From positions 219,329 through 282,963 of the forward strand of contig MGPQ01000019.1 of the NCBI GenBank assembly GCA_001797465.1: a DNA stretch of 63,635 nucleotides, in the 5' to 3' direction. Origin of the DNA: Deltaproteobacteria bacterium GWB2_55_19 (GTDB lineage: Bacteria > Desulfobacterota > GWC2-55-46). The notes beneath the pieces were generated by a model. The model was not told the origin of the DNA, searched no databases, and saw nothing but the letters and a program-made list of their open reading frames with translations. Within the stretch, counting starts at the first letter, position 1. Each line of letters begins with the position of its first letter. The position numbers and the translations under genes were made by a program. This document shows positions 36,569 to 48,887 of the stretch, piece after piece.

Positions 36569-37222
36569 ATGATTGCCAAAGACATCCCATCAGTAATAAG
36601 AATATTAAGGTCCGAGGTAAAAAGGCTCAAGACCCCGTATGTGACAGAGGTCGCGGAGGGGAGAGACCCCTTCCGGGTCCTCATATCCTGCATCATCTCG
36701 TTGAGGACAAAGGACGAGACGACAAGGCAGGCATCCGAGAGACTCTTCGCCCTCGCAGTAACACCTGAGGCTATCAACAGGCTCGATGAAAAGGCGATAG
36801 AGAAGGCCATCTACCCCGCCGGGTTTTACAGGACAAAGGCCCGGACTATTAAAGCGATTGCGAGGGAGCTCATCACCAAATACCGGAGGAGGGTCCCTGA
36901 CGAGATAGACGAGCTTCTAAAGCTGAAGGGTGTCGGGAGAAAGACCGCCAACCTCGTCGTCACCATTGGCTTTGGCAAGCCAGGCATCTGCGTCGATACC
37001 CATGTGCACAGGATAACGAACCGATGGGGGTTCGTATCCACAAAAACCCCCGAGGAGACGGAATTCGTGCTCCGTGAGAAGCTCCCGAAGAGGTACTGGA
37101 TAGAGATAAACGACCTCCTCGTCGCATACGGCCAGAACGTCTGCTCTCCGGTCTCGCCCTTCTGCTCGATCTGCCGCCTTAACGAGATGTGTCCGAGAAG
37201 AGGCGTCGGTAAAAGCAGATGA
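36569..37222 (+). CDS. nth: Endonuclease III
   Basis: DNA glycosylase/AP lyase that removes oxidised pyrimidines. The 217-residue protein has the helix-hairpin-helix LKGVGRKTANLV with catalytic Lys125, Asp143 in CVDTHVHRI, and the C-terminal [4Fe-4S] loop Cys192-x6-Cys199-x2-Cys202-x5-Cys208. All catalytic and cluster residues are present and length is normal. The ribosome-binding site is weak. It stands alone between repeats and the selenoprotein gene. Confidence 0.96.
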   Translation: MIAKDIPSVIRILRSEVKRLKTPYVTEVAEGRDPFRVLISCIISLRTKDETTRQASERLFALAVTPEAINRLDEKAIEKAIYPAGFYRTKARTIKAIARELITKYRRRVPDEIDELLKLKGVGRKTANLVVTIGFGKPGICVDTHVHRITNRWGFVSTKTPEETEFVLREKLPKRYWIEINDLLVAYGQNVCSPVSPFCSICRLNEMCPRRGVGKSR

Positions 37223-37390
37223 GTCGGCGCCGCCCCCGCACATAACCCTTGTAAAACCCTCGTCACCCGTTGTATATTCAGTAGGCCAATTTCCGGGCAT
37301 TCCACCGGGATATCGTGTATAATCAAGAAGAGTGGCCCTGCTGTTTGTAATCTTCCGTTTCCGTATCGTCCCTGAGAGTGGAGGCTAAAT

Positions 37391-37615
37391 ATGCGCGAGA
37401 AGGTCATCATATTCGGCAAGGACACCTGACCATATACAAACGCGGCCCGTGAGGAATTCGCGAAAAAAGGTTACGACGTCGAGTACGTGAACGTCAATGC
37501 CTCTCCAGAGAACATGGAGAGGATGATGAAGCTCTCCAAGGGCTCAAGGAACGTCCCGGTAATCGTCGAAGGCGGGATGGTAGTCGTCGGTTACGGCGGC
37601 ACCTGAGGGGTTTAA
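37391..37615 (+). CDS. Glutaredoxin-like selenoprotein with two UGA (Sec) codons, Uxx-star type
   Basis: A 74-codon frame reading MREKVIIFGKDT-U-PYTN, then a thioredoxin-fold body (AAREEFAKKGYDVEYVNVNA, SKGSRNVPVIVEGGMVVVGY) and ending GGT-U-GV-stop. TGA codons at 37427-37429 (residue 13) and 37604-37606 (residue 72) are read through in this model; TAA at 37613 ends it. U13 occupies the first Cys position of the glutaredoxin CPYC motif (here UPYT), and the C-terminal U-x-x-stop matches what I know as the Uxx-star (seleno)protein family. GGAGG lies 6 nt before the ATG. Routine gene calling would miss it because of the stops. Role: probably thiol/selenol redox chemistry; partner unknown. Confidence 0.85.
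37441..37462 (+). promoter_or_regulatory. Candidate SECIS hairpin for the first UGA
   Basis: CGCG (37441-37444) pairs with CGCG (37459-37462), and CC/GG inside closes a GTGA apical loop at 37449-37452, 20-23 nt after the UGA. Bacterial SECIS elements lie directly downstream of the codon in this distance range. The stem is short, so this is tentative. Confidence 0.45.
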
Positions 37616-37618
37616 TCG

Positions 37619-37636
37619 GCCGGCAGGTCTGCCGGC
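37619..37636 (+). promoter_or_regulatory. Candidate SECIS hairpin for the second UGA
   Basis: GCCGGCAG (37619-37626) pairs with CTGCCGGC (37629-37636), leaving a GT-containing apical loop about 20 nt after the second UGA and just beyond the TAA stop. A strong stem at SECIS distance; without a T-run it is less likely a terminator. Confidence 0.5.
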
Positions 37637-37672
37637 AAAGCAATTGATCGTCAAACCGCGCCATAAAAGGCC

Positions 37673-38320
37673 ATGAAAAAACTTATCCTGGTTCTGGCTC
37701 TATCAGCCGGGCTACTTGCCTCGTGCGCTGGAGACCCCCTCCGGCAGGCGAACCTCGGCGTCAGGGAGACATACAGGTCCCCGGCCTTCACTGAAAGATA
37801 CAACGGCAACGCGCTCGGCCTCCTGACCGCGGCCGGCGGCGACGGGAGGCAGGAATACAAGAATATCCTCGGGGAGTTCGTAGAGGAGGCGCTCAAAAAA
37901 GAGCGCCCGGACCTGAAGATCGTCCCGTACTGGGAGTCGCTCTCCAGCATAAACAGCAAGGGGTTCACGCCTGACTACGCCGAGATGCTCCACGCCTACG
38001 CCACGACCGGCATACTCGACAGGGACAGGCTCAAAAAGCTGGGCATCGCGCTCGACGTCAGGTACTTCGTCCAGCCGAGGCTCATAAACTTTCAGCAGAG
38101 GCAGTCGACGAGGTTCTCGCTCTTAGGGCTCACGCTATTCAAGACCCACGAGTCCGAGATAAAGATATACCTCGAGATGTGGGACGCGCATACCGGGAAC
38201 GTCGTCTGGATAGGGGTCGCCGAGACGAACATGGCCTCCGAAAAATTCATGGCCCGCCCCATACCCTTCGAGGAAGTGGCCAGATACGCGATAGAAAATC
38301 TGATTAAGAAAATGCCTTAA
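37673..38320 (+). CDS. Putative lipoprotein of unknown function
   Basis: 215-residue protein with a lipoprotein signal (MKKLILVLALSAGLLASCAG, lipobox LASC, Cys18). The mature part has no motif I can name; it contains EYKNILGEFVEEALKKERPD, LDVRYFVQPRLINFQQR and YLEMWDAHTGNVVWIGVAET. The last of these resembles segments in envelope lipoproteins of the LpoB/CsgG-like kind, where a periplasmic alpha-beta fold assembles. That resemblance is weak. It is followed by ndk 29 bp downstream. Confidence 0.8.
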   Translation: MKKLILVLALSAGLLASCAGDPLRQANLGVRETYRSPAFTERYNGNALGLLTAAGGDGRQEYKNILGEFVEEALKKERPDLKIVPYWESLSSINSKGFTPDYAEMLHAYATTGILDRDRLKKLGIALDVRYFVQPRLINFQQRQSTRFSLLGLTLFKTHESEIKIYLEMWDAHTGNVVWIGVAETNMASEKFMARPIPFEEVARYAIENLIKKMP

Positions 38321-38349
38321 TATAATAAAAAGGAGGAAGTACCCGTAAG

Positions 38350-38766
38350 ATGGAAAGGACCCTTTCAATAGTAAAGCCGGACGGCGTAAGGAAGAACGTA
38401 ATAGGGGATGTCATAGGCAGGTTCGAGAAGCAGGGGCTTAAGGTCGTCGCGCTCAAGATGGCGAGCCTCTCAAAGGCCGAGGCCGAGGGGTTCTACGCGG
38501 TCCACAGCGCGCGTCCGTTCTTCGCATCGCTGACCGAGTTCATGTCCTCAGGCCCGGTCGTCCTCATGGCCTTGTCAGGCGAAGGCGCGATAAAGAAGGT
38601 GAGGGACGCGATGGGGGCTACGGACCCGGCAAAGGCCGCCCCTGGCACCATAAGGAAGGACCTCGCCGACTCGATCGAATCGAACATAGTCCACGGCTCT
38701 GACGCCCCGGAGACGGCCGCGTTCGAGATAGGGTATTTTTTCAACGCGTTAGAGATTAAAAGATAG
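38350..38766 (+). CDS. ndk: Nucleoside diphosphate kinase
   Basis: Balances nucleoside triphosphate pools by phosphate transfer through an active-site His. The 138-residue protein has the start [53 protein letters not shown] and the catalytic His115 in [11 protein letters not shown]. Complete and normal length. AAAAAGGAGG lies upstream with a slightly long spacing. Confidence 0.98.
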
Positions 38767-48066: not shown

Positions 48067-48153
48067 GGAGAGATGCCCGAGTGGCCGAAGGGGTACGACT
48101 GGAAATCGTATGTACAATAAAATGTACCGAGGGTTCGAATCCCTCTCTCTCCG
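48067..48153 (+). tRNA. tRNA-Ser (GGA anticodon)
   Basis: An 87-nt class II tRNA. Acceptor GGAGAGA/TCTCTCC, anticodon stem TACGA/TCGTA with loop CTGGAAA (anticodon GGA), a long variable arm closed by GTAC/GTAC, and T-arm GAGGG-TTCGAAT-CCCTC. Discriminator G at 48153; CCA is encoded at 48154-48156. It reads UCC and UCU Ser codons. Confidence 0.97.
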
Positions 48154-48361
48154 CCATAAATAAGCAAGAGAGCCGGAAGGGATTCGAAACCGTCTGAACG
48201 CCGAACGTATGTGAGGATGAGGCCGCTGGATGCGGCCGGAAGTGAAGATGGCCGGGCTGGAATGCGAGGCAGGAGGCCGAAGCGTGGAAGCCGAATCCCT
48301 CTCTCTCCGCCATAAATAAGCAAGAGAGCCGGAAGGGATTCGAAACCGTCTGAACGCCGAA
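48136..48361 (+). repeat. tRNA-Ser(GGA)-linked 156-bp repeat
   Basis: The last 18 nt of the tRNA plus its trailer (48136-48205, 70 bp) recur exactly at 48292-48361, giving a 156-bp unit and a partial second one. The trailer contains GGGATTCGAA (48179-48188), the reverse complement of T-arm sequence TTCGAATCCC (48134-48143). The 86-bp interior (ACGTATGTGAGG...AAGC) has a counterpart about 80% similar after the second tRNA-Ser. No convincing coding frame. The layout resembles the E. coli tyrT locus, whose 178-bp repeats carry the tRNA 3' end. Confidence 0.9.
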
Positions 48362-48443
48362 TTTTTCTATTTAAGATAGAATATTGACGAGAGACCCAGG
48401 GGGTTTTGGCCGTTACGGGCCTTGGTTATATAGAAATTTTTAC

Positions 48444-48530
48444 GGAGAGATGACCGAGAGGCTGAAGGTGGCTGACTCGAAATCAGCTGTGCTGGAAACG
48501 GCACCGGGGGTTCAAATCCCTCTCTCTCCG
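48444..48530 (+). tRNA. tRNA-Ser (CGA anticodon)
   Basis: An 87-nt class II tRNA with the same acceptor stem GGAGAGA/TCTCTCC. Anticodon stem GCTGA/TCAGC, loop CTCGAAA (anticodon CGA), long variable arm (GTGC...GCAC), T-arm GGGGG-TTCAAAT-CCCTC with one G-T pair. CCA encoded at 48531-48533. It reads UCG. Confidence 0.97.
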
Positions 48531-48718
48531 CCAGAAACATCATAGGCGCTCGAAGGGATTTGAACCGTCTGAGCGCCGAGCGGATGCGAGGAAGAGGCCG
48601 CAGGGACGCGGCCGGAAGCGAAAGACGGCAGGGCTGGAATGCGAGGCAGGATGCCGAGCGTGGAAGACAAATCCCTCTCTGTGCCAGAAACATCATAGGC
48701 GCTCGTGGGGATTTGAAC
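48513..48718 (+). repeat. tRNA-Ser(CGA)-linked 155-bp repeat
   Basis: CAAATCCCTCTCT...GCGCTCG (48513-48552) recurs at 48668-48705, a 155-bp period; the second copy has lost a few bases of the acceptor stem. The trailer carries GGGATTTGAA (48555-48564), the exact reverse complement of this tRNA's TTCAAATCCC (48511-48520). The interior (CCGTCTGAGCGCCGAGCGGA ... GGGCTGGAATGCGAGGCAGG) is homologous to that after tRNA-Ser(GGA). Confidence 0.88.
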
Positions 48719-48755
48719 AGCCCCGGCGGCCTCAAGGGCTTTTTGGTTTTTCAGG

Positions 48756-48887
48756 CTTGCGGGCCCTGTTGATAGCTGGGTCTTGCGCAATGGTACGCTG
48801 TAAACCCCGCCAGGTCCGGAAGGAAGCAACGGTAGCAGTTTTATCCATGTGCCGCAAGGGTGCCTAGCTATCAACAGGACCCGCAAG
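48756..48887 (+). ncRNA. ffs: Signal recognition particle RNA (4.5S type)
   Basis: About 132 nt. Ends pair through TTGATAGCT (48769-48777) and AGCTATCAA, extended outwards by CTTGCGGG and CCCGCAAG. The apical Ffh-binding domain has the conserved CAGGTCCGGAAGGAAGCA (48811-48828) and GTAGCAG. It pairs with Ffh to target membrane proteins. Its position directly upstream of dnaX-ybaB-recR and downstream of tRNA-Ser matches the order known in Firmicutes and others. Exact ends are approximate. Confidence 0.95.

Follow-up and report, generated by a model that had tools for sequence, protein, structure and literature searches.

Positions 37391-37615 of the window (the whole stretch of 63,635 nucleotides that was analysed) almost certainly carry a glutaredoxin-like selenoprotein gene of UXX-star family 1 with two selenocysteine (Sec) residues. 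Comparative sequence analysis shows the reading frame, Sec at the two positions and the presence of the insertion machinery, and it shows that the 3' hairpin is a conserved RNA structure. The interest of the gene lies in a putative second SECIS element beyond the stop codon and, in relatives, in the close neighbourhood of a Sec-UGA and a stop-UGA.

The reading frame, its relatives and the Sec machinery

With TGA read as U, the frame translates as MREKVIIFGKDTUPYTNAAREEFAKKGYDVEYVNVNASPENMERMMKLSKGSRNVPVIVEGGMVVVGYGGTUGV. It is free of frameshifts and contains TGA exactly twice, at codons 13 and 72, giving the redox motif U13-P-Y-T16 and a tail, U72-G-V-TAA, of the C-terminal U-x-x-stop type. 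The first-pass annotation had described the frame in these terms, as a glutaredoxin-like protein behind a good ribosome-binding site and a member of the Uxx-star family. The translation, the GGAGG sequence (Table 1) and a match to Pfam Glutaredoxin (PF00462, 7e-13, above cut-off) bear this out, and the family assignment is borne out by the NCBIfam model NF041114, 'UXX-star selenoprotein family 1', which is matched over model positions 1-70 of 70 with 117.5 bits against a cut-off of 72 (2.3e-34). The broader NCBIfam model NF041212 gave 95 bits against a cut-off of 66. The gene had also been said to escape ordinary gene calling. A standard gene caller does miss it, since translation by table 11 stops after 12 codons, and no plus-strand ORF of at least 60 aa is listed in the interval that separates nth (36569-37222) from the lipoprotein gene (37673-38320); the statement is to be qualified all the same, as NCBI curates a model for this very family.

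Table 1. Features of the selenoprotein gene and its surroundings in window coordinates
Feature	Position	Strand	Details and basis
Ribosome-binding site GGAGG	37380..37384	+	6 nt 5' of ATG; sequence
UXX-star family 1 selenoprotein gene, glutaredoxin-like	37391..37615	+	74 codons + TAA; translation, family model
UGA codon 13, Sec of UPYT motif	37427..37429	+	UGA in 32/40, Cys in 8/40 distinct genes
SECIS-like hairpin 1, within coding region	37441..37462	+	Loop GUGA 37449-37452, 19 nt past UGA13; fold, Arg20 codon, partial covariation
UGA codon 72, Sec of C-terminal U-x-x-stop	37604..37606	+	UGA in 39/40 distinct genes; Cys in G043 gene
Terminator TAA	37613..37615	+	Translation; equivalent codon TGA in 15/40 genes
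SECIS-like hairpin 2, 3' of stop	37619..37636	+	7-bp GC stem, loop GGUC 37626-37629, 19 nt past UGA72; fold, covariation

In many relatives nth (5') and ndk (3') also lie close to the gene, as they do here (window 36569-38766), and in fewer of them a lipoprotein gene precedes ndk. Elsewhere in the window, two tRNA genes and a bacterial small SRP RNA are clustered at 48067-48872 (+).

The genome (2.6 Mb, 100% complete) holds the Sec-insertion genes that had been proposed as a check, all above curated cut-offs: selA (573 bits), selB (350 bits), tRNA-Sec or selC (72 bits) and selD (372 bits). SelD, too, is a selenoprotein here, its in-frame UGA standing in CAGUAAK, where this enzyme usually has its Sec. 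No second copy of UXX-star family 1 was found in this genome. An improvised glutaredoxin query, which was a poor one, gave no match there, and the family model was used instead.

When 59 genomes (own and related) were searched with the family model, 39 had a gene above cut-off. Gene and selA occurred together in 33 genomes, neither was present in 13, six had the gene with no selA found and seven had selA only (Fisher p 2e-4, which is optimistic since the relatives are not independent). Four of the six have UGA-bearing genes and all four also have selB above cut-off, so their lack of selA probably reflects a gap in the assembly. In G043 and G044, neither selA nor selB was found above cut-off, and their family genes hold no internal UGA: the G043 gene reads KDTCPYT...GFGGACGV, with Cys13 and Cys72, and the G044 gene has Cys13 and Ser72. 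Most of the named relatives are MAGs of Deltaproteobacteria from groundwater; others belong to Acidobacteria and Nitrospirae.

Codons 13 and 72 were compared in 40 distinct genes, that of the window included. The combination was UGA/UGA in 32, Cys/UGA in seven and Cys/Ser in one, and codon 13 was never anything other than UGA or Cys. The sequence past both UGAs is conserved in this set, and the alignment of homologs that had been suggested thus turned out as predicted, the two places being held by Sec or Cys and in one case by Ser. Between the UGAs, changes fall mostly in third positions and, where dS could be estimated, dN is far below it (0.0075 vs 0.11 for the congener L043 and 0.15 vs 1.06 for L027).

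Some loci depart from the single-copy pattern. One genome holds two different copies of the gene, each with two UGA codons (L031 of G015; L057 and L063, which both come from isolate NC_groundwater_1645_Pr3_B-0.1um_57_199). In a selA-positive genome, L084 (G054:C5:7300-8200) matches only the last 20 model positions. It retains U72 with the hairpin, while its N-terminal part is unrelated sequence; it is a truncated or rearranged copy.

Fold and likely role of the protein

An AlphaFold model built on the alignment (pLDDT 91.7) has the order beta-alpha-beta-alpha-beta-beta and matches glutaredoxin and NrdH (1h75, TM 0.76, rmsd 1.6). The final helix of glutaredoxin is absent from its fold, and a GG-T-U-G-V tail stands in its stead. 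The protein would most likely be a small reductase, with the selenol of U13 as the nucleophile that attacks the substrate. Thr16 stands where a CxxC motif would have its second Cys, and U72 at the C-terminal tip is for this reason proposed as the resolving partner (forming a diselenide or selenenylsulfide).

We lean towards such a redox role, without great confidence. In the same selenoprotein the two Sec residues might instead form a ligand pair for a soft metal or metalloid (e.g., Hg or As). This would suit a UPYT motif lacking the second Cys of dithiol glutaredoxins and a Sec72 that is more constant among the 40 genes than Sec13, and a 2026 review (PMC13188914) suggests that in UXX-star proteins Sec may coordinate metals or else interact with some unknown substrate. 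Fold and motif position, however, are those of glutaredoxin and NrdH, and no metal-resistance gene was seen adjacent to the gene, its neighbours being nth, the lipoprotein gene and ndk. We hold metal binding to be a tentative and rather unlikely explanation, and the redox couple remains our preferred reading.

Two hairpins and the probable double meaning of UGA

The first-pass annotation had placed a hairpin near each UGA, and this stood well for one of them and with qualification for the other. The bacterial SECIS model given in PMC13188914 has a loop of 3-9 nt with an early G, a stem of 4-16 bp, 16-37 nt between UGA and loop, and an energy of -7.5 kcal/mol or lower. Hairpin 2, with its GGUC loop, 7 bp, spacing of 19 nt and -14.2 kcal/mol (z -2.3), lies within all of these ranges. 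On 35 distinct sequences, 96% of the cells pair and compensatory changes occur in 8/8 pairs; the compensatory cells number 28, whereas shuffles give an expectation of 6.4 and sliding one arm by 1-3 columns leaves 0-12. This covariation strongly supports hairpin 2 as a conserved RNA structure. In most genes its loop starts with GG or GU and lies 17-24 nt from UGA72, while the gene with Ser72 (L053) has a shorter 3' hairpin without such a loop. A search of the window with Rfam at gathering scores gave no SECIS match, which says little, as bacterial SECIS elements vary widely.

A strong GC hairpin directly 3' of a stop codon might also serve to end transcription and not be a SECIS element at all. 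Hairpin 2 is followed by no T-run, and for lack of a U-run it is not an intrinsic terminator; no terminator-like site was found, and the GG/GU loop at a set distance from UGA72, with its loss in the Ser72 gene, also speaks against termination. This reading is very improbable and was rejected.

Hairpin 1 is of ordinary stability (-7.8 kcal/mol, z about -0.4 to -0.6). Loop, spacing and energy fit the bacterial SECIS model, but the stem adjacent to the loop has just 2 bp and is followed by an internal loop. Doubly changed cells number 17 against 7.9 in shuffles, and are confined to two pairs. Codon choice backs this hairpin despite its weak folding energy: the second and third bases of the Arg20 codon open the loop, and this codon is CGT in all 32 Sec13 genes and in 3 of the 8 Cys13 genes, CGT being rare among the other Arg codons of these genes (8/108). 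Two species of one genus differ accordingly, L048 having Sec13 with CGT and L039 Cys13 with CGC.

Hairpins 1 and 2 may both work as SECIS elements. Hairpin 1, inside the coding region, would bring SelB with its Sec-tRNA to UGA13, and hairpin 2, in the 3' untranslated region, would do so for UGA72; translation ends at the TAA of codon 75.

In relatives the terminator itself is often UGA. Codon 75 is UAA or UAG in 25 of the 40 genes and UGA in 15 (L026, L029, L032, L033, L037, L039, L045, L046, L051, L052, L053, L065, L067, L068, and L073), and all of the latter but L053 carry a Sec-UGA at codon 72, three codons upstream. These UGA terminators lie 5' of the counterpart of hairpin 2, and they are about as frequent as in the background (15/40 family genes vs 39/111 among long frames at these loci). 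The family shows no sign of avoiding UGA as a terminator. The frame past the codon-75 UGA is not conserved, and this codon is accordingly a stop. With hairpins picked by best score (that of L069 is doubtful), the loop lies 17-24 nt from UGA72 and 8-14 nt from the UGA stops; the 9-nt difference is by construction, and every UGA stop is closer to the loop than the model's lower limit of 16 nt. In 14 of the 40 genes, UGA would probably have two readings in one mRNA, Sec at codon 72 and stop at codon 75, the meaning being set by the spacing to the loop of a single 3'-UTR hairpin. Once codon 75 reaches the A site, the base of the hairpin is probably already inside the ribosome, and the UGA would be read as stop. 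As the gene of the window ends with TAA, this pairing concerns the family and not the present copy. A literature search, which did not cover 10.1128/msystems.01417-24, found no description of a Sec-UGA and a stop-UGA nine bases apart.

The comparisons also refute two readings of the internal UGAs that dispense with Sec. A glutaredoxin gene that had decayed into a pseudogene through two nonsense mutations would account for the two internal stops of the table 11 frame, but most of the 40 genes have UGA at the identical two positions, UAA or UAG never occurs there, the region between them is under purifying selection, relatives have Cys at the same places and the hairpins are conserved; we give this reading practically no credence. 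Equally negligible is a genome-wide reassignment of UGA (e.g., to Trp or Gly) without selenium, which would leave the window gene and SelD open but is contradicted by UGA being the commonest terminator of long open frames in the window (22/49) and by relatives replacing both UGAs with Cys, once Ser, and not with Trp or Gly.

Comparison with known systems

The gene belongs to an already catalogued family, so the first-pass annotation overstated its novelty: PMC13188914 lists it as 'Distant Grx-like protein 1', gives UxxT as its motif and two as its number of Sec, and refers to a marine metagenome study of 2008. No passage on UXX-star family 1 was found in the main text of that study (PMC2398784). 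The product of the window gene is probably a tiny redox protein. Between NF041114 and the window gene we saw no essential difference, the full-length match, UxxT, the two Sec and the C-terminal U-x-x-stop all being common to both. In the literature examined for the family, no description was found of a second SECIS placed in the 3' UTR or of a UGA terminator in some members. The present analysis confirms a gene lost by standard calling and adds relatives with natural Sec-to-Cys replacements. UXX-star family 1 would offer a compact natural assay of how the ribosome tells a Sec-UGA from a stop-UGA nine bases away, and would likewise be useful for studying SECIS elements sited past the stop codon.

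UXX-star families 2 and 3 (NF041211, NF047338) and the HUGP/GUXX-star fusion (NF045501) share the small domain of family 1 as well as a Sec at the C-terminal end, but the window protein reaches only 60-61 bits with these models, far below their cut-offs of 97-325. With Glutaredoxin 3 and NrdH it shares the fold and the position of the CPY-type motif. It differs from them in having Sec for the nucleophilic Cys and Thr for the second Cys, and in place of their last helix it has a short tail ending in U-G-V.
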